Assembly (NCBI GenBank): GCA_900754805.1
Contig: CAAEEE010000105.1
Coordinates: forward strand, 1 to 7,270
DNA from: Clostridia bacterium
Lineage (GTDB): Bacteria; Bacillota; Clostridia; Peptostreptococcales; Anaerovoracaceae
DNA length: 7,270 bases
Reading direction: 5' to 3'
Numbering within the stretch: the stretch's first letter is position 1; every line of letters starts with the position of its first letter. Below the pieces are notes generated by a model. The model was not told the origin of the DNA and searched no databases. It was given only the letters and a program-made list of their open reading frames with translations. Positions 1 through 7,270 of the stretch are shown piece by piece. A program made the translations under genes and the position numbers.

Positions 1-1
1 G

Positions 2-1078
2 ACCAACCCGTACCTCGAAAAAGGCGTGATTACGGGCTGCCTTAGAATCAGCAAGGAAAGCATTTTTACAGGGCTGAACAATTTGGAAGTGGACAGCGTA
101 CTTCATACGCGCTACGGAGACAGCTTCGGCTTTACCGAAAGGGAAGTGGAAGAAATGCTTGCGTATTATGATTTGCAGGCGGAACTGCCGGAGGTAAAAC
201 GCTGGTATGACGGATATCTGTTTAATGACATCGAAATCTATAATCCGTGGAGCATTCTTAAATATGTCAATGACCAAAAAGATCATGTAACGCAGTTTGC
301 GCTTCCATATTGGTCGAATACATCGTCAAACAGCATCGTGCATGAGATGGTGGAAAATGCGGATGATAGTGCAAGGCGCGATCTGGAAACACTTATGGAC
401 AGCGGAACCATTGAAAAAACAGTTCACGAAGAGATTACCTACGGCGACATCCATAAATCACAGGATAACCTTTGGAACTTCTTGTTCTTTACGGGCTATC
501 TGAAAAAGGTCGGCGAACGGAAGGACAAGGAGGGAGATATTCACCTTCAAATGGCGATTCCGAACATGGAGATAAAGAAGATCTATCGGGAATCAATTGC
601 TTGGTGGTTCGATAAGAAGATTGAAAAACTCGACCGCAGCCCACTTGTGCACGCTCTGGAGACGGGAGACTGCGAAGCCGCACAACACTTCCTGAATGAG
701 CAGCTGCTTGACACGATCAGCTATTTCGACTATGCAGAGAGTTACTATCACGGCTTCATGGCGGGACTTCTGAGCAACGCGGGCAGATACCGTGTCTACT
801 CCAATCGCGAGAGCGGAAACGGCAGGCCGGATATCGTTCTGACGGAGCTGAAATTCATGGGCAGGGCGATGATTCTGGAACTGAAGATTTCGGATACATT
901 TCGCGGCATGGAGAAAAAGTGCGAGGAGGCACTCGCACAAATCGAGGAGCAGAAGTACGCGAGCCCGTTGGAAGACGACGGCTACCAGGAAATACTCAAA
1001 TATGCTGTCTGCTTCTTTAAGAAAGGCTGCATGGTGAAGAAAGCGACCGGTATCCATCAGCACAAAGACGAACAATAA
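2..1078 (+). CDS. AAA-ATPase_like / PD-(D/E)XK nuclease-like protein, 5'-truncated by window edge
   Basis: The open frame runs from the window edge, and the 358 visible residues are the C-terminal part of the protein. The frame is open upstream of the GTG at 26, so that codon is not the true start; Walker A and B would lie outside the window. Family hallmarks of AAA-ATPase_like (PF09820) are visible: NPYLEKGVITGCLRISKESIF at the start, WYDGY near residue 68, YNPWSI shortly after, and YWSNTSSNS. The C-terminal third matches PDDEXK_9 (PF08011): RYRVYSNRESGNGRPD followed by ILELK puts candidate catalytic residues at D277, E293 and K295 of the visible fragment. These proteins occur in many copies in anaerobic Firmicutes and Bacteroidetes. 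Their role is unsettled; mobile-element or defence links are proposed. The gene is more G+C-rich than the rest of the window and shows no operon link to the next gene, 127 bp downstream. The family call is firm; the function is not known. Confidence 0.9.
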   Translation, partial: TNPYLEKGVITGCLRISKESIFTGLNNLEVDSVLHTRYGDSFGFTEREVEEMLAYYDLQAELPEVKRWYDGYLFNDIEIYNPWSILKYVNDQKDHVTQFALPYWSNTSSNSIVHEMVENADDSARRDLETLMDSGTIEKTVHEEITYGDIHKSQDNLWNFLFFTGYLKKVGERKDKEGDIHLQMAIPNMEIKKIYRESIAWWFDKKIEKLDRSPLVHALETGDCEAAQHFLNEQLLDTISYFDYAESYYHGFMAGLLSNAGRYRVYSNRESGNGRPDIVLTELKFMGRAMILELKISDTFRGMEKKCEEALAQIEEQKYASPLEDDGYQEILKYAVCFFKKGCMVKKATGIHQHKDEQ

Positions 1079-1106
1079 TCGGATGGAAACAATGATTGAC
1101 AACTGA

Positions 1107-1122
1107 CATCGGTATCCCGGTG
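1107..1122 (+). other. Short stem-loop after the AAA/PD-(D/E)XK gene
   Basis: CATCGG (1107-1112) and CCGGTG (1117-1122) form a 6-bp stem with one G-T wobble and a 4-nt TATC loop, 29 bp past the stop codon. No T-run follows (the next bases are ATTTCGATAAAAT), so this is at best a weak or Rho-assisted 3' end and not a convincing intrinsic terminator. Confidence 0.3.
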
Positions 1123-1142
1123 ATTTCGATAAAATAATGTAA

Positions 1143-1175
1143 AAGTATGGATACTTGTAGGAACTAAAACTACAA
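1143..1175. repeat. Two adjacent inverted repeats upstream of the two-component operon
   Basis: AAGTAT-GG-ATACTT (1143-1156) is a perfect 6-bp inverted repeat with a 2-bp centre. It runs directly into TTGTAG (1155-1160), which is the inverse of CTACAA (1170-1175) across a 9-bp spacer. Both sit in the 127-bp gap before the sensor gene, about 30-60 bp ahead of its ATG, where an operator or 5'-UTR hairpin would be expected. I could not identify a convincing -35/-10 pair in this gap, nor LytTR-type direct repeats. Confidence 0.4.
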
Positions 1176-1205
1176 AAATATAAAGGAAAAAGAAGGGAGA
1201 GGAAA

Positions 1206-2048
1206 ATGAATATCAATCGGTTAATTGAGACAGGAATCTATCTGTTTTTTTCTGTAATTCTATTTATGTCACTATATAAACAGTGGTTTCAATTCTCCCC
1301 AAAAGCAACTTTCACTGTGGCTTCCGGACTCGCATTTGCAGATGCATTTATACCAATGGCTGCGCCTCCCGGCCGAGGATGGATAATTGCACTTGTTTCC
1401 TGTTCCACCATTTTTATCGGAGCATTTATGATGCGAAAAGGAACACGATGCAAGATGCTGATTCTATACATAATTCAAGTTTTCGTATACAATATTTTAG
1501 GTGTAGCAATGATTGCAGTTATGACTGTTTGCTATGGTTTGTTGACAGGGAAAAGCAGTCAGACGTGGTTTGTAGACACGACGATGACACAAACCGATCA
1601 CTTCATGAAATGGATTGGGATGGTACTTTCTTATTGTGCTGCACTTTGGATATGCAAAAAATGCATTTCTCTGTTAGAGTCTTTGAGCAAGAAGGAACAG
1701 TGGTTTTTTTCAAGCGCTCTGATTATTCCGGATGTTCTTTTTTTAGCTGCGTCGAGAAGTTTTATTGTAAGTGATGATCAGATGCTTGCGGGAATTTTTG
1801 TGACTTTGTATGGAATTTTTACGATATGGCTTGCGATTGTTATAAGCCTTGTGTTGCTGATTCCGTTTCTTCGTTTGAGAAGAGAAAATCATCTGCTTCA
1901 GGAGCAGATGGAAGCGCAATATCTTTATTATACGAAAGTGCTGGAAATGCAGTCGCAATTACGAGAAATACGACATGATTTAAAAAATAGACTTATAGCA
2001 GAGAATATGCTGAGAGAGGAAGCCCGAAATGACAGATGCACAGATTAG
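1206..2048 (+). CDS. Polytopic membrane sensor ending in an HPK10-type H-box, without an ATPase domain
   Basis: This 280-residue protein starts at ATG 1206 behind a strong ribosome site (GGGAGAGG, about 4 nt spacing). It has six to seven hydrophobic segments: roughly residues 10-23, 35-52, 58-75, 83-110, 135-150, 166-183 and 194-223. A charged helical linker follows, and then IRHDLKNRL with the presumed phospho-acceptor at H257. This is the layout of AgrC-like HPK10 sensor kinases, where a multi-pass module senses a peptide or membrane signal and the RHDxKN motif is phosphorylated. The protein stops only 23 residues after the histidine, so it has no N-box and no ATP-binding domain. The next gene overlaps it by 20 bp and supplies a GHKL ATPase. 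I infer a split kinase acting in trans. The alternative is a truncated relic. The sensed ligand is unknown; no agrB- or agrD-like gene is in the window. Confidence 0.8.
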   Translation: MNINRLIETGIYLFFSVILFMSLYKQWFQFSPKATFTVASGLAFADAFIPMAAPPGRGWIIALVSCSTIFIGAFMMRKGTRCKMLILYIIQVFVYNILGVAMIAVMTVCYGLLTGKSSQTWFVDTTMTQTDHFMKWIGMVLSYCAALWICKKCISLLESLSKKEQWFFSSALIIPDVLFLAASRSFIVSDDQMLAGIFVTLYGIFTIWLAIVISLVLLIPFLRLRRENHLLQEQMEAQYLYYTKVLEMQSQLREIRHDLKNRLIAENMLREEARNDRCTD

Positions 2049-2619
2049 AAGCACAATTATTATAGTGGGCACAGTACTGTTTATTGTTGTAGTGATGATT
2101 CTTTTCAGAACGGTTAGAACAAAAGAACATAATCAGCATTTGCATGTGCAAAAAAAACTTCGTGAGTCGCAGCAGCGGGAACTTGAGGGATATGAGACAA
2201 GTATTCAGAACTTGATCGCCGAAATCGCAAATAAACCGTATGATGCTGAGGCAGCATTGGCTTTGTCTGAACAATGTCAAGACTATATAGGGATAAAGTT
2301 GACCGGGCAGCCGACTGTAGACGCATTGCTGGCATATAAAAGAAAAATTTGTGCTGATAAAAATATATTGTTCCGAATCAATGCAATTAATTTTCCGGTA
2401 GACTTTTTGCTTGACGATGAGTATGTGGGTATTTTCGGAAATCTGTTGGATAATGCGATAGAGGCGGCAGAGAAAACATTATCTCCATGGATATGCTTGA
2501 AAAGCTTTACTGCATCGGGGCAGTGGATTTTGGAGGTAACAAATTCTAAGTCTGTCAATGAGGCACCTCTGGAGAGGAATATGGAAACCATAAAAGAAGA
2601 TAAAAAAATCACGGTTTAG
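2029..2619 (+). CDS. Single-pass membrane GHKL ATPase subunit of a split histidine kinase, C-terminus frameshifted
   Basis: ATG 2029 lies inside the end of the sensor gene (20-bp overlap) and has its own ribosome site, GAGAGG, about 9-10 nt upstream, consistent with translational coupling. Residues 9-26 form one transmembrane helix (IIIVGTVLFIVVVMILF), followed by a probable coiled coil (about 31-66). TGQPTVDALLAYK (92-104) is the conserved HPK10 segment before the ATPase. The N-box GNLLDNAIEAAEK (137-149, with N138 and N142) and LEVTNSK identify a HATPase_c_5/GHKL fold. No histidine sits where the H-box should be; residues near 55-66 (YETSIQNLIAEI) look like a degenerate version. As sequenced, the frame ends with ITV-stop at 196 residues, because the A7 run at 2602-2608 is one base short of keeping the G2 box in frame. 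With one extra A the protein would be 246 residues. It is either a pseudogene, a sequence error, or the site of -1 slippage. Confidence 0.8.
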   Translation: MTDAQIRSTIIIVGTVLFIVVVMILFRTVRTKEHNQHLHVQKKLRESQQRELEGYETSIQNLIAEIANKPYDAEAALALSEQCQDYIGIKLTGQPTVDALLAYKRKICADKNILFRINAINFPVDFLLDDEYVGIFGNLLDNAIEAAEKTLSPWICLKSFTASGQWILEVTNSKSVNEAPLERNMETIKEDKKITV

Positions 2620-2768
2620 GTGTAAAAATCGTGAAACGAATCGTTAAGAAATACAGGGGCGTAGTAAACTACAGAGATTATGAGGATTCTTTCGAGGTGA
2701 TGATCGCAATACCGCTTGCGGAAATTGAAGGAAGGAATACCGGAAATGTGGAATGTTGTAATTTGTGA
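2607..2768 (+). pseudogene. Out-of-frame C-terminal tail (G2 box) of the GHKL ATPase gene
   Basis: In the -1 frame relative to the ATPase gene, this stretch reads NHGLGVKIVKRIVKKY, then a beta-strand-rich end (VVNYRDYEDSFEVMIAIPL), and stops at TGA 2766-2768. NHGLGVKIV is the HPK10 G2/ATP-lid motif (NHGxGLxxI in relatives) that must follow the N-box. Reading D-K-K into N-H-G-L-G needs exactly one more A in the run at 2602-2608. The tail overlaps the response-regulator start by 23 bp, mirroring the 20-bp overlap at the other end of the gene. This supports the tail being the original C-terminus and not chance coding. Confidence 0.8.
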
Positions 2769-3486
2769 CGATCAGGCTGAAATGCTCAGAAATGTGGCAC
2801 AGAAGCTGAACAGTTTAAAGATGGAGGAAATCAGGAGTATTATATGCTTTCAATATGCTGATTTTATGATTGGCGAATTGGAAGAACAGCGCTTCGATGC
2901 AGGCATCTTTATTCTTGATGTGAAACTGAAAGAGATGAATGGCATCGATTTAGCAGGGAGGATTTTGAGACTTCATCCAAACAGTCAGATTATCTTTATG
3001 TCGGGGTATGACGACTATTTTGAAGACGCATATGAAGTGGAACACTGTTTTTTTCTGAGAAAACCGGTTACGGATGTGAAACTCGAGAAAGCCGTGCGGC
3101 GAGCCATCAAAAATTTAGGCGACAAGAAGAAAAACTTTTTTTACGTCGAAAACAAATCGGGTCAATATGTAATTGACTGCAGTGAGATTTTCATAATTGA
3201 AAGGAGAAAACGAAAACTACTGGTGATGGGGGAAAATGGCAAGCTGCTGTGCAGCTTCTACGGGAAATTAGAGGAAGCAGGAGCAAAGCTGCCGGATCAT
3301 TTCTTCCAATGCCATAACAGCATCCTGGTTAATTTCAAGAAGGCGCGTTCGATTAGCGGCGAGGCATTTTTAATGGTAGACGGAAGCAAGGTAGTTATAA
3401 GCCGCAGTCATAAAAATGAATGCAAAAGCAGCTTCGCGAGATTTTGCAGTGAAAGGCGTACGAAGGCGGAAGCTAAAGAGGAATAG
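2746..3486 (+). CDS. LytTR-family response regulator (AgrA/LytR-like)
   Basis: The start is ATG 2746, preceded by AAGGAAGG with about 10 nt spacing. A TTG in the same frame at 2716 is rejected because it adds residues before the conserved first strand. The protein has 246 residues. The receiver domain spans about 1-115: acidic pair D8-D9, phospho-acceptor D58 in ILDVKLKEMNG, S86 in FMSGYDDY, and K106 in RKP, so all phosphorylation residues are present. The LytTR DNA-binding domain covers about 128-235, with the typical FFQCHNSILVNFKKA and VISRSHKNECKSSF segments. The architecture and length are normal for the family. It is the cognate partner of the two preceding kinase genes, whose 3' end it overlaps. 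LytTR regulators bind paired direct repeats about 21 bp apart; such a pair lies at 3583-3615, just past this operon's terminator. Confidence 0.93.
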   Translation: MWNVVICDDQAEMLRNVAQKLNSLKMEEIRSIICFQYADFMIGELEEQRFDAGIFILDVKLKEMNGIDLAGRILRLHPNSQIIFMSGYDDYFEDAYEVEHCFFLRKPVTDVKLEKAVRRAIKNLGDKKKNFFYVENKSGQYVIDCSEIFIIERRKRKLLVMGENGKLLCSFYGKLEEAGAKLPDHFFQCHNSILVNFKKARSISGEAFLMVDGSKVVISRSHKNECKSSFARFCSERRTKAEAKEE

Positions 3487-3500
3487 GACGAGGAAGAAGA

Positions 3501-3546
3501 AACAGTCGGTGATTTTAAAAAATGAAGTCGACCGGCTGTTTTTTTT
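3501..3546 (+). terminator. Rho-independent terminator of the two-component operon
   Basis: AACAGTCGGT (3501-3510) pairs with ACCGGCTGTT (3531-3540) through one G-T wobble. The inner GATTT/AAGTC bases extend the stem after a one-base bulge, and a run of eight T (3539-3546) follows directly. It begins 15 bp after the response-regulator stop and separates that operon from the downstream promoter. Confidence 0.9.
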
Positions 3547-3582
3547 ATTCACAGTATCGACACGATTCGACGAAATTCTGCA

Positions 3583-3615
3583 AAAAGGTACATCATACAT
3601 ACCAAAAGTTACATC
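3583..3615 (+). promoter_or_regulatory. Candidate LytTR binding site: direct repeats with 21-bp period
   Basis: AAAAGGTACATC (3583-3594) and AAAAGTTACATC (3604-3615) are identical at 11 of 12 positions and start exactly 21 bp apart, two helical turns. LytTR regulators such as AgrA bind two 9-bp direct repeats separated by about 12 bp, with a core of the form WMMGTTNRK. The second repeat fits the first seven positions (AAAGTTA), and the first differs by one base in the GTT. The downstream repeat ends 1 bp before the proposed -35 element, the usual place for an activator. A LytTR gene lies immediately upstream. Binding itself is inferred. Confidence 0.6.
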
Positions 3616-3616
3616 G

Positions 3617-3646
3617 CTCACACAAAAAAACTTATTGTGCTATGAT
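3617..3646 (+). promoter_or_regulatory. Extended -10 promoter for the vWA/tubulin-like genes
   Basis: TATGAT (3641-3646) is preceded by TGC (3638-3640), giving the TGn extended -10 motif. The matching -35 region, CTCACA (3617-3622, 18-bp spacer), is poor, which is typical of activator-dependent promoters. Transcription would start near 3653 and leave a leader of about 160 nt before the vWA ATG. Confidence 0.55.
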
Positions 3647-3764
3647 AAGAATGGATAGGCAATAACGAAAAACAATGATAAAAGTAAGAAAAAAATTTGA
3701 AATTAAAAAAATAAATACGAGTTTAATCGTTGTAATGTATAAGGAAATCCACAGAGAAACAAAT

Positions 3765-3792
3765 AGAAGGAGGAAGGTTGCTAGAAATTTGA
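3765..3792 (+). other. Second Shine-Dalgarno-like sequence with a four-codon mini-ORF in the leader
   Basis: A strong AGAAGGAGG (3765-3773) stands 39 bp ahead of the real start site. It is followed after 4 nt by TTG CTA GAA ATT TGA (3778-3792). It could be a leader peptide, a ribosome standby site, or a chance purine run. Nothing else in the 266-bp gap (3547-3812) looks coding; the rest of the leader is A/T-rich. Confidence 0.2.
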
Positions 3793-3812
3793 ATCATAGC
3801 AGGAGAGGAACA

Positions 3813-5888
3813 ATGAAAAACAGATTTTTTGCAGGAATAATTATTACTTGTATGGTAATTTGTATGATATGTCCTATGGTGGCTTTTGGTGAAATGAGCA
3901 AGGACATGGTGAAAGCGACACATTTTAATGTTGCGTTGGCTGTAGATGGAAGCCCCTCACTTGTGGGTAAAAAAGGAACAGATCCCAATGGAGTGAGATA
4001 TGAGGCAGTAGAGCTCTTTATGGGACTGCTTACAGATAAAGGAAATAATGTCGGGGCGATAGTCTTTAACGGGACAGATCCGTTGGCTTTAAATACAGGA
4101 CTTAACGAAGCCTCTGGATTTAAAGCTAAAAACGAGATTCTGAAACAAATAAAAAATACCGGTATCGATAAATATACCGATGTTGGTACGGCGGCACTGG
4201 AGGCGGTAAATACATTAAAGAATGTAAAGAATGACATGCCATCCGTCGTTATACTTATGACTGACGGCAAAACAGAAATGGAAACGGACGATAAACTGAA
4301 CCAGTCACTTGCAAACAAGGAAAAAGCGATAGAAAAAGCCAATGAATATGATATACCGATTTACTGCATATGCTTGAACAAGAACGACTCTGCGGCAACA
4401 GAAGAAATCAAAGAGATTGCAGACAGAACAAGCGGAGAATATGTTGAAGTTAAAAATGCAAAAGATCTGAAGAAGGCATATATGTCGTTTTACGAACTCA
4501 TATATAAGGCACCTAGCACTTCAGAAGAAGCTACAATAGGAAACAAAGGCTACATTGATAAGACTTTTTATGTTCCTGACAAGGGGGTTGAAGAGGTGAA
4601 CCTTGTAATATCCTCATCAGGTGAACTGAAATCGATTGCAGTGACAAAGCCTGACGGTACAGTTTTAGGAGCAAGTGACTTCGGAGACAATATAGTTAAG
4701 ACTAAAACTTTTAACCTTATAAAAATAGTCGACCCGGAAGGCGGCGACTGGAATGTCAAAGTCAAGGGGGATAAAGGCACAAAGGTAGGCTTTAATATAG
4801 TATACAATTCTCTTATATCCGCAGATATTTATGTAGCGGATGCAAAGAAGGAATACGAGCTTGACAGCAGTCTGGAGTTTCATGCGACACTTCTCAATGA
4901 GAACAATCTTGTCACTAAAGAAGAAGATTACGACGGATACAAGGCACAGCTTGTTATTAAAAACAAAGCAACAGGTAAAGAGCAGACAGTGAATATGGAG
5001 CTCAGCGAAAAAGCGGAAGAAGGTTTTGTTGCCGAAAGAAAGTTTACTGAAGCGGGAGCATATCAGGTATATGCAGTTCTCAAAGCAGAAGAATATGAAG
5101 AAAAAACAAAGACGATTCAAATCAATGTTGCACATGGAGCGCCGACCCCGGTATCCGAAAAACTGAAATTTACGAAACTTGTATTTCCATTTTCAAAAAC
5201 ACAGATACAGGTAGATTTAAGCCAGCAGTTTGAAGATGCTGATACTCCGGCGGACGAGCTGTCATATAGTATCAAATCAAATGGCCTTAAAAACGAAAAC
5301 GTATCGCTTGATGGCAGTCAGCTTACAATCGGCGGCAAGGGCGTAGGAAGCGGCAAGATCATAGTTGAATGTACCGATCCTCTCGGAGGGAGCGGAGAGT
5401 GCATAGTTGTCATAAGAGTAATACATATGCTGCCTATTATTGCAATAGTGCTTGCGGTGGTAATTATTGTATTTTTGGCACTTAAAGGGATACAAGATAG
5501 AAAAGCTCGCAACTACAGATTTAACGGAAACATAGAATTTAAAATTTTGCCGGTGAATGATGACGGTAGTATTGACAGATATAGCAGCGAAAAAACTATA
5601 AGTAGTATAGAGCCTGTAGGTCCATTTAGATACAGTAAAAAACTGAGTCCTTACGGAGAGTGGAAAGATTTCATCAAGAAGGGCAGTCGTGTAGATGCAA
5701 CAGCTAAGAATAATGAAGTTGTTATTGTTCTTAAAAACAGGGTTTACGAAAAAACAAACAATAAATTCATAGGAATAAAGAAACTGAAAATGCGTATAGG
5801 TCAGACGAAGATTTTATATGGAAAAAATAAAAATGATAGCCGTGTAATGGTTATCTCAGTTTCACACGAGGGATTTAACGATTGGTAA
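3813..5888 (+). CDS. Secreted/membrane-anchored vWA-domain protein with Ig-like repeats, one TM helix and cytoplasmic tail
   Basis: The start is ATG 3813, preceded by AGGAGAGG with 4 nt spacing and opening a clear signal peptide (about residues 1-26, hydrophobic core ending P-M-V-A-F-G). The open frame extends back to 3675, but that extension is basic, lacks a ribosome site and would bury the signal peptide. The product has 691 residues. The vWA domain covers about 38-231 with a complete metal-ion-dependent adhesion site: D45-G-S47-P-S49, T122 in TDVGTAAL, and D151 in MTDGKTE, so it should bind a divalent metal and a protein ligand. Three beta-rich regions follow: about 238-335, 336-440, and a cadherin-like one at 458-537 (FEDADTPADELSYSI, then TDPLGGSG). 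One transmembrane helix lies at about 539-557, and a 134-residue cytoplasmic tail rich in K and beta-strands completes the protein. The N-terminus would be outside and the tail inside. The next gene is a tubulin-like GTPase 88 bp away, suggesting a shared function. No specific family name is recognised for the whole protein. Confidence 0.88.
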   Translation: MKNRFFAGIIITCMVICMICPMVAFGEMSKDMVKATHFNVALAVDGSPSLVGKKGTDPNGVRYEAVELFMGLLTDKGNNVGAIVFNGTDPLALNTGLNEASGFKAKNEILKQIKNTGIDKYTDVGTAALEAVNTLKNVKNDMPSVVILMTDGKTEMETDDKLNQSLANKEKAIEKANEYDIPIYCICLNKNDSAATEEIKEIADRTSGEYVEVKNAKDLKKAYMSFYELIYKAPSTSEEATIGNKGYIDKTFYVPDKGVEEVNLVISSSGELKSIAVTKPDGTVLGASDFGDNIVKTKTFNLIKIVDPEGGDWNVKVKGDKGTKVGFNIVYNSLISADIYVADAKKEYELDSSLEFHATLLNENNLVTKEEDYDGYKAQLVIKNKATGKEQTVNMELSEKAEEGFVAERKFTEAGAYQVYAVLKAEEYEEKTKTIQINVAHGAPTPVSEKLKFTKLVFPFSKTQIQVDLSQQFEDADTPADELSYSIKSNGLKNENVSLDGSQLTIGGKGVGSGKIIVECTDPLGGSGECIVVIRVIHMLPIIAIVLAVVIIVFLALKGIQDRKARNYRFNGNIEFKILPVNDDGSIDRYSSEKTISSIEPVGPFRYSKKLSPYGEWKDFIKKGSRVDATAKNNEVVIVLKNRVYEKTNNKFIGIKKLKMRIGQTKILYGKNKNDSRVMVISVSHEGFNDW

Positions 5889-5896
5889 CATATGAT

Positions 5897-5937
5897 GGGC
5901 AGAAAGTCCACGAAAGCCTAAACTCCGAACTGCCAAT
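5897..5937 (+). other. Candidate structured RNA element between the vWA and tubulin-like genes
   Basis: GGCAG (5898-5902) pairs with CTGCC (5930-5934) around a 27-nt loop containing AAAGTCCACGAAAGCC and TAAACTCCG. CCAAT (5933-5937) can alternatively pair with ATTGG (5881-5885) at the end of the vWA gene, so two exclusive helices are possible. No T-run follows, so it is not an intrinsic terminator. It fills most of the 88-bp gap ahead of the tubulin-like ribosome site. It matches no RNA family I can name. Confidence 0.3.
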
Positions 5938-5963
5938 ACGAGATTATTTTAATGAGGAGATAT

Positions 5964-5969
5964 AGGAGG
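5964..5969 (+). promoter_or_regulatory. Shine-Dalgarno AGGAGG that decides the tubulin-like start
   Basis: AGGAGG ends 1 nt before ATG 5971 but 7 nt before the in-frame ATG 5977. The latter is normal spacing, so 5977 is preferred. A second weaker GAGGAG at 5954-5959 could serve 5971 at about 11 nt. Confidence 0.6.
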
Positions 5970-5976
5970 AATGAAA

Positions 5977-7270
5977 ATGTACGAAGGATTATTATTATCA
6001 ACAGGTGGAGGAATAATTACCGACCTCAAAAAATCTGCACAGCAGGGTGATCCTACTATAATCATAGGCTTAGGTGGCACAGGAATTGATGCCCTGAAAG
6101 TAGTAAAAAGGAAAGTCTATGAACAACTGATACCAGACAATCCCAATGGCGAGATACCTGAATATGAGAATATAGGTTTTCTAGCAATAGATACTGACAC
6201 AATAACTACCGGTAACGGCGCTAATAGCCTATATGACCTTGAAGCCGCTGAGTGTCTCAGTATACGAGTTAATGATTTAGCTGCAAAAATGAGAAACGAT
6301 ATAGCCGTGAAAAAAACAGAGTTTGCATGGCTGCAGCCGGAATTGAATTTTCTCGGGGTTGTTAGACCGGCAAGACAGATAGGCAGATACTGTCTCTTTA
6401 AAAATATTGATAAGATTATTGCTAAAATTAGCGATTTGCGAGCTGCCGTGACTAAAAGAACAAGCAACAACAAAGTAAATGTACATATACTGGCAGGTAT
6501 ATCCGGCGGCACAGGCAGCGGCATCTTTATAGATATGTGCTATATTATCAGGGACTTGCTAGGTGGAGACGCAACCTTATTCGGGTATTTCTTCATGCCA
6601 GATGTGAATTTAAATAAGGCTGGAATTGCAGGCAACCCTTTAATTATGAACAGAATTAAAAGTAACGGATATGCGGCACTGAAAGAGCTTGATTATACTA
6701 TGAGCTTAACCGAATCAGGCGATAGCTTTTCACAGTATTATGGTGGTGTGAGACTGTATTCTATCGAAAAAACCTCGGAGCCTCCAGTTGACCTCTGCCA
6801 TCTAATTTCCACCACTGGAACACCTATTCCTAACGGATATAGGTACAGTATGAATGTTGTAGGCGAGTATATATTATCCCATTTGGCGCAGGTTCAAGGC
6901 AACCATGGTGCTGGTATGCAGCACGCTCTGGAGCATCACCTTGTTCCCAAACCACATTTGATAGACATGATTGAAAAAAAACATGGTGCGAATTTAAACT
7001 ACCATATACTCGGAGCTTCTACTGCAGAACTTCCAACCAAAGAGATAGGAACATATTTAGCAGCAAAGCTGTATCAAAAAATAGGAAGCGGATTGACAGA
7101 AAATGTACCTACATATAATGATGTGGAAATGCATGCAAAAAAAATAGGCCTTACCTTATATAAGATAACGGAAAGCCTGCGTGGTGACAAAGAGTGGAGA
7201 GTGACGGGGTCTGATGCTATAAGATGGCAGGGAAGATATGATTTTTCAATTGAAGATGCATGCGATACAA
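5977..7270 (+). CDS. Tubulin/FtsZ-like GTPase (Tubulin_2 type), 3'-truncated by window edge
   Basis: The frame is open from ATG 5977 (or ATG 5971, two codons earlier) to the window end, giving about 431 residues. The N-terminal Rossmann loop IIIGLGGTGIDAL has GLGGTG at residues 31-36. IGFLAIDTDTITT follows at the expected next strand. The tubulin signature loop GGTGSG lies at 177-182 in AGISGGTGSGIFIDM, the nucleotide phosphate-binding motif of tubulin, FtsZ and TubZ. NRIKSNGYAALKELDYTM, further on, is characteristic of the Tubulin_2 family (PF13809), whose members are large, often about 1000 residues, so more than half may lie beyond the edge. The protein has no signal peptide and is expected to be cytoplasmic. 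It lies 88 bp after the membrane-anchored vWA gene on the same strand with no terminator between, so co-transcription is likely. The cytoplasmic tail of the vWA protein is a plausible docking partner. A membrane-remodelling or filament role is inferred from the superfamily and is not shown here. Confidence 0.87.
   Translation, partial: MYEGLLLSTGGGIITDLKKSAQQGDPTIIIGLGGTGIDALKVVKRKVYEQLIPDNPNGEIPEYENIGFLAIDTDTITTGNGANSLYDLEAAECLSIRVNDLAAKMRNDIAVKKTEFAWLQPELNFLGVVRPARQIGRYCLFKNIDKIIAKISDLRAAVTKRTSNNKVNVHILAGISGGTGSGIFIDMCYIIRDLLGGDATLFGYFFMPDVNLNKAGIAGNPLIMNRIKSNGYAALKELDYTMSLTESGDSFSQYYGGVRLYSIEKTSEPPVDLCHLISTTGTPIPNGYRYSMNVVGEYILSHLAQVQGNHGAGMQHALEHHLVPKPHLIDMIEKKHGANLNYHILGASTAELPTKEIGTYLAAKLYQKIGSGLTENVPTYNDVEMHAKKIGLTLYKITESLRGDKEWRVTGSDAIRWQGRYDFSIEDACDT

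Follow-up and report, generated by a model that had tools for sequence, protein, structure and literature searches.

A vWA receptor-like gene adjoining an FtsZl1-type tubulin gene in a Clostridia bacterium: a variant of a known cluster whose tubulin likely lacks the usual T7 acid

A 7,270-nucleotide stretch of DNA from a Clostridia bacterium of the family Anaerovoracaceae (assembly GCA_900754805.1, contig CAAEEE010000105.1, positions 1 to 7,270 of the forward strand; hereafter the window) encodes, one directly behind the other on the plus strand, a receptor-like membrane protein of 691 residues with a vWA domain (3813..5888) and a Tubulin_2 protein of the FtsZl1 type (5977..7270), a branch of the tubulin superfamily that is widespread; the window includes the tubulin's first 431 residues, and the 3' end of its gene lies outside. 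In our reading the two genes likely stand at the head of a known cluster, and the variant seen here has a tubulin that appears able to bind GTP and is unlikely to turn it over in the ordinary manner. The pairing has been described before; new here are a complete tubulin fold predicted in the structure model of a full-length relative, the apparent distribution of an acid at the T7 loop, which sets one lineage that has it against lineages that do not, the joining of near-identical ectodomains to different tails in close vWA relatives, seen by sequence comparison, and a direct repeat of 21-bp spacing located between a LytTR regulator gene and the pair.

Architecture of the paired proteins

The vWA gene runs from ATG 3813 to a stop codon at 5886-5888, and its product matches the Pfam VWA family across residues 39-221 (E 1.6e-12). 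Its AlphaFold model (mean pLDDT 82.8), read together with the sequence, predicts a signal-peptide helix at residues 2-23 (3816..3881), a vWA domain at residues 39-231 (3927..4505), a beta-rich ectodomain at residues 235-538 (4515..5426), a single transmembrane helix at residues 539-566 (5427..5510) and a cytoplasmic tail of 125 residues (567-691; 5511..5885), whose beta-rich part spans residues 573-684 and which has diverged among close relatives. An original prediction made from the letters of the window had proposed the signal peptide and the single helix, and the model predicts both. The metal-ion-dependent adhesion site (MIDAS) is intact, consisting of D45-x-S47-x-S49 (the DxSxS motif at 3945-3959), T122 and D151; in 46 sequences D45, S49, T122 and D151 are invariant and S47 is conserved in at least 90%. 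A GBD_Hemicentin match over residues 249-320 of the ectodomain stays below the Pfam cut-off (23.1 against 27 bits). Pfam recognizes no YtkA domain in this protein at E 0.1, beta-rich domains being modelled there, and no cell-wall anchor domain. The best two Foldseek matches are the pilus adhesins PitA and SpaC, with TM-scores of 0.21-0.24, and the VIA structure list includes integrin I domains as well as other vWA receptors. An NCBIfam scan of the pair gave nothing specific, the best match of the vWA protein being BatA (26.6 bits against a cut-off of 380) and the tubulin having none.

Two ATG codons could start the tubulin gene. ATG 5971 sits one base past the ribosome-binding site AGGAGG (5964-5969), and we regard ATG 5977 as the likelier start because its spacing from that site is better and the homologues P0001, P0002 and P0059 begin with MYE. 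With this start the intergenic gap is 88 bp (5889..5976), as originally predicted, and a plus-strand scan found no terminator-like site between the two genes; the RNA of positions 5889-5970 folds like its own shuffles (z -0.42). The tubulin matches PF13809 (Tubulin_2) over residues 30-370 with an E-value of 1.4e-54 and 186 bits against a cut-off of 27. Its T1 loop GLGGTG (residue 33; 6067..6084), conserved in alignment A1 of relatives, and its T4 loop GGTGSG (residue 179; 6505..6522) are both intact, and the protein is predicted from its sequence to bind GTP (residue numbers for these loops and for the segment 386-433 below are counted from ATG 5971). The domain assignments of the original prediction, MIDAS and both loops included, are thus borne out. 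The relative P0059, of 1019 residues, is identical to the window tubulin at 344 of 382 aligned positions over residues 1-385 and at 47 of 48 over 386-433, and by this comparison the full length of the window protein is likely to be about 1019 residues.

The structure model of a full-length relative is confident and holds the whole tubulin/CetZ fold, so that the GTPase fold which the original prediction wanted checked at full length is present in the model. It aligns with nearly all of CetZ2. What stands apart is an insertion, a long helix among its elements, which by the secondary structure adds about 370 residues to the second domain. The model has a helix of 69 residues at 550-618, followed by other long helices, in a region that the window protein has beyond the window edge. 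The second tubulin domain is apparently split by a coiled-coil insertion. No solved structure matched the tubulin profile by sequence.

Close relatives of both proteins differ from them in a segmental manner. Over residues 36-538 the window vWA protein shares 98-99% identity with P0048, a figure that falls to 89% in the helix and to 74% in the tail; for P0049 against P0050 the corresponding values are 97-99%, 71% and 70%; and P0048 and P0050 are 87-91% identical outside the tail and 85% within it. Among these four proteins the ectodomains are near-identical and the transmembrane ends and tails differ, as if exchanged. In the tubulin, the segment at residues 386-433 (window positions 7126-7269) is 42% identical to P0061, which is 86% identical before it, and 96% identical to P0060, for which the preceding figure is 84%. 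This segment, which follows the GTPase half, occurs in at least two types that are independent of similarity elsewhere in the protein. The pattern in tails and segment fits an exchange between paralogues. From the mosaic tails and the switching tubulin segment we infer that the tail and the tubulin, rather than the ectodomain, may carry the specificity of pairing.

The T7 loop and GTP turnover

The T7-loop region of the window tubulin, QVQGNHGAGMQHALEHHLVPKP (6889..6954), was placed by the order of elements in the relative's model, in which a loop links H7 (299-315) to H8 (324-336), rather than by residue-level superposition. It lacks the motif of most relatives, which we wrote, after viewing the same sequences, as any residue followed by [HYQFWL][ILVFMH][SATG]N. 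The first position of this motif we take to be that of the acid which completes the neighbour's GTPase site in tubulin and FtsZ. It is aspartate in all 14 proteins of a Paenibacillus/Clostridium group (one from Saccharibacillus and one from a Clostridiaceae metagenome-assembled genome included), whereas the 52 single or last copies in other loci have serine (29), glutamine (8), glycine (7), alanine (1) or glutamate (1) there, or lack the motif (6); that is, an acid occupies the position in 1 of 52.

Among tubulins that precede another one in multi-tubulin loci, 11 of 12 lack the motif and 8 of 12 have a changed T4 loop; for those situated after a vWA gene and before the last tubulin the figures are 9 of 9 and 5 of 9, and for six further copies (L048, L050, L054) 6 of 6 and 4 of 6. 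In the group of the window protein 11 of 17 full or near-full proteins lack the motif and 7 have a changed T4 loop. As the earlier tandem copies look more diverged overall, loss of their motif may in part reflect relaxed constraint. The window tubulin combines intact T1 and T4 loops with absence of the T7 motif; it has a glutamate near T7 (HALEHHL), in the stretch devoid of the motif. In the alignment no column from 320 to 334 has an acid in over one third of the rows, and column 319, just outside, is acidic in 17 of 42. Taken together, sequence and model predict that the window tubulin likely lacks the usual acid for GTP hydrolysis at T7.

Gene neighborhoods and possible local regulation

A query with the single protein against genome contigs gave no match, and an alignment query gave relatives; the alignment-based scan confirmed 432 of them, of which 75 loci were kept. 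A vWA gene was called at more than 60 bits against a profile of the window protein and P0048-P0058. By this measure 59 of the 75 loci have a vWA gene as the immediate upstream neighbor of the tubulin gene, on the same strand, 57 of them found by script and two (L034, L039) missed by it, longer antisense open reading frames having been chosen. In L011, L036 and L072 one small reading frame stands between the two genes. In eleven of the other 13 loci the sequence ahead of the first detected tubulin is shorter than 1.7 kb (L003, L005, L013, L024, L028, L038, L047, L054, L059, L063, L067), and the remaining two (L048, L050) represent additional copies, a pair being present elsewhere on the same contigs (L036 and L020, respectively). 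The adjacency occurs among Clostridia, Paenibacillus, Lactococcus, Bifidobacterium and other loci, so that the predicted pairing is upheld by genes that are commonly, not rarely, neighbors.

Since these loci had been chosen by similarity to the query, we took a second sample of 291 genomes, all of one class; Tubulin_2 scored above its cut-off in 9 of them. Seven neighborhoods were covered (G001 being L020 already, and G270, a 28-bit fragment, being left out). Immediately ahead of the tubulin gene, L077 and L082 have a profile-matched vWA gene. In L079, L080 and L081 the protein encoded in this place has a DxSGS motif and, according to a hydropathy script, two hydrophobic segments, one at the N terminus and the other further along; of the three, just that of L080 matches a Pfam vWA family at E 0.01. 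In L078 a vWA gene lies four genes upstream, and in L076 the stretch covered, from which three proteins were Pfam-scanned, gave no match to a vWA profile. The Tubulin_2 frame of L076 extends for about 843 codons and is followed by a clostripain-family gene.

The original prediction expected more components past the 3' edge, and the neighborhoods of the relatives support this. Counting fragments, genes past the tubulins in the 75 loci encode a 630-residue protein (54 loci, the longer Paenibacillus form included), a 220-residue protein (38), a DO-GTPase-type protein (47), a GAP1-type protein (51) and a kinase-like protein (22). DO-GTPase2 is recognized in L020 (E 1.1e-9), and of the 16 clostridial proteins in alignment A3 hmmscan assigns GAP1-N2 to seven and GAP1-M to six. 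GAP1-N2 is also found, with an E-value of 1.8e-45, in genome G004, the home of the Paenibacillus locus L066. A search with the GAP1-N2 profile (PF20013) retrieved it from 1 of 24 genomes (G004), 12 of the 24 carrying Tubulin_2; this profile probably misses the clostridial versions because of their divergence. Pkinase is matched in 4 of 12 kinase-like proteins scanned (best E 0.0021). In L012, L020 and others the last gene of the cluster encodes such a protein of about 340 residues, possibly a pseudokinase. One of 16 members of the 630-residue family matches Tubulin_2 (E 4.2e-5), and the profile comparisons between the two are weak and fall on two different regions. At least two Tubulin_2 reading frames of more than 600 residues are present in 10 of the 75 loci (L001, L014, L015, L022, L031, L032, L040, L045, L049, L054). 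These ten contain two to four Tubulin_2 frames, the earlier of which mostly have changed T4 and T7 loops. Searches of viral contigs recovered no relative of either protein, and those of plasmids only four distant matches covering 37-76% of the query.

The window holds six reading frames of note, all on the plus strand. Upstream of the pair these are a PDDEXK_9 protein cut at its 5' end (2-1078), a membrane-protein-like frame with no Pfam match (1206-2048), a piece of a GHKL kinase (2029-2619) and a LytTR-family response regulator (2746..3486; Pfam Response_reg 1.6e-13, LytTR 9.1e-13). Near 2602 the kinase frame crosses a run rich in A and ends shortly after it; GHKL-like coding apparently resumes in another frame, and the break appears to be a frameshift or a sequencing error. 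Against the proteins called from the first 75 loci, a search at E 1e-5 gave no relative of the PDDEXK protein, the kinase or the regulator, and by this comparison of sequences the three stand outside the conserved cluster; when the search of these loci was repeated at E 10, it gave a single match (E 0.001), to the regulator.

Between the regulator gene and the vWA gene lies a LytTR-site-like direct repeat, AAAAGGTACATC and AAAAGTTACATC (3583..3615, plus strand), with a 21-bp period. The two copies agree at 11 of 12 bases and form the only such offset-21 pair in the window. LytTR regulators bind spaced repeats of this kind. The repeat, which was spotted by eye before the resampling test, was reached in 0.4% of 5000 Markov-1 resamples of the 326-bp gap, and in 1.3% of 600 when offsets of 20-22 were admitted. 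Right after it, a consensus scan finds a promoter-like site (CTCACA, 18 bp, TATGAT; 3617..3646, plus strand); the region has 7 such sites against a shuffle mean of 7.3, so that the site is weak evidence alone. We propose that the LytTR regulator may control the pair, which would be local wiring only, since the proteins called from the first 75 loci gave no match to the regulator at E 1e-5.

Possible functions and relation to known systems

To one account of the pair we give roughly even credence. The predicted membrane-spanning vWA receptor would sense a ligand in the envelope or outside the cell, its ectodomain binding the ligand through the MIDAS metal, and its tail would contact the tubulin and thereby tether it to the inner face of the membrane. 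There the tubulin, alone or with tandem paralogs, could assemble into a scaffold whose GTP would not be turned over in the usual way, since its T7 loop lacks the acid. The downstream GTPase and GAP1-N2 protein seen in relatives might then serve as timing switch and output, and the adjacent LytTR regulator might switch the cluster on via the paired repeats. Such an assembly would be a stable polymer or oligomer held beneath the membrane by its receptor, unlike a division ring that treadmills. A more specific form of the proposal, which we consider unlikely as a whole, is that the receptor-tethered polymer has no GTP clock of its own: the tubulins between the vWA gene and the last tubulin would have kept the fold, lost the T7 motif and diversified as tandem paralogs with hypervariable T7 interfaces and exchanged tails, forming LytTR-switched, heteromeric, hydrolysis-arrested filaments timed by the DO-GTPase/GAP1 switch.

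Several observations weigh against the receptor-tethered scaffold. The 75 loci are not independent, some coming from one genome and several being close relatives, and were selected by likeness to the query; in 2 of the 7 class-wide neighborhoods, L076 among them, no vWA gene stands directly upstream; and the window stops inside the tubulin, the genes beyond being known from relatives alone. Further, 38 of 46 aligned rows carry some D or E within columns 320-334 (8 carry none), and an acid could act from another place; the T7 position follows from element order, the motif is post hoc and the catalytic role is that of the acid in tubulin and FtsZ. A comparison of distance matrices between parts of the vWA protein and the tubulin (50 pairs) gave r values with the first tubulin domain of 0.90 for the tail, 0.86 for the first beta region and 0.81 for the vWA domain; it does not single out the tail and is not used as evidence of contact. 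The function as a whole, with ligand binding, polymerization and the tail-tubulin complex, is what we infer from these data.

The same components admit other readings. In the frame of Kaur et al. 2020, tubulin and vWA protein would be regulated parts of an invasion-responsive GTPase/GAP1-N2 switch, that is, of a defense or programmed-death system. We regard this conflict system as rather unlikely. In its favor, the DO-GTPase2 of L020, the GAP1-N2 and GAP1-M proteins of the clostridial relatives and the GAP1-N2 of G004 match its components, and its patchy spread (9 of 291 genomes) and diversified paralogs with mosaic tails would suit it. However, a PADLOC scan of ten proteins, the window pair included, gave one weak match (Csm2, E 0.0045), in a library that may omit the system; no toxin-like effector appeared among the Pfam-scanned proteins, and an extracellular vWA receptor suits envelope sensing at least equally. 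A machine for membrane remodeling or vesicle formation with GTP-dependent polymer turnover, after Makarova and Koonin 2010, accords with the tubulin fold, the membrane-anchored partner and the conserved cluster, and the aspartate shared by the whole Paenibacillus/Clostridium group would allow for it; but the window protein and 51 of the 52 copies elsewhere lack the acid, which speaks against ordinary turnover, and no known membrane-deforming component was found among the scanned proteins, so we hold it improbable.

The anatomy of the pair also fits the outside-to-inside module of the original prediction, a proposed surface adhesin tied to a dynamic internal cytoskeleton. It is favored by the Foldseek and VIA matches to pilus adhesins and integrin I domains, yet these, with such low TM-scores, may mirror the shared vWA fold, and the missing Pfam cell-wall anchor and the T7 changes speak against an adhesin on a dynamic filament; we think it quite improbable. 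That the two genes are chance neighbors with unrelated functions could draw on L076, but is contradicted by the same-strand adjacency across several groups and by the association reported in two papers (PMC2875224, PMC7159879), and hardly merits belief. Literature searches turned up no experimental study of FtsZl1. Given the predicted fold with its insertion, the contrast between lineages at T7 and the adjoining receptor gene, filament formation and control by an outside signal become directly testable questions for this receptor-tubulin pair.

The original prediction called the pair the best candidate for an undescribed system, and here the literature precedes it. Operons of vWA and FtsZl1 genes were reported by Makarova and Koonin 2010 (PMC2875224), and that paper describes proteins of about 1000 residues with an N-terminal FtsZ-like domain and GTP-binding loop, mostly accompanied by a vWA gene, some with a signal peptide or transmembrane segment and most with an intact MIDAS, all as in the window and its relatives. 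Its authors were unable to locate T6-H7 or a second tubulin domain, whereas the relative's model aligns with nearly all of CetZ2; set beside FtsZl1, the window T7 region is without the motif of most relatives. The firmicute tubulin theme of Kaur et al. 2020 (PMC7159879) combines tubulin, vWA, DO-GTPase and GAP1-N2 genes, which relatives of the window match. The theme as presented there includes a vWA-YtkA fusion, and the window protein has no Pfam-recognized YtkA; it also includes two tubulin genes, and 10 of 75 related loci hold at least two, the window ending in the first. The clostridial loci add the 630-residue, 220-residue and kinase-like proteins. In the defense library, the window proteins had no PADLOC match at E 0.01, with the system possibly absent from it. 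BatA/BatB-type vWA membrane proteins (4jdu, 3ibs) are set apart by another ectodomain and neighborhood, the window protein scoring far below the BatA cut-off. Archaeal CetZ (e.g. 4b45) is 17% identical to the relative's model, which differs from it in the second-domain insertion and in having vWA and GTPase genes as neighbors. Thus, the system is a variant of a known cluster.

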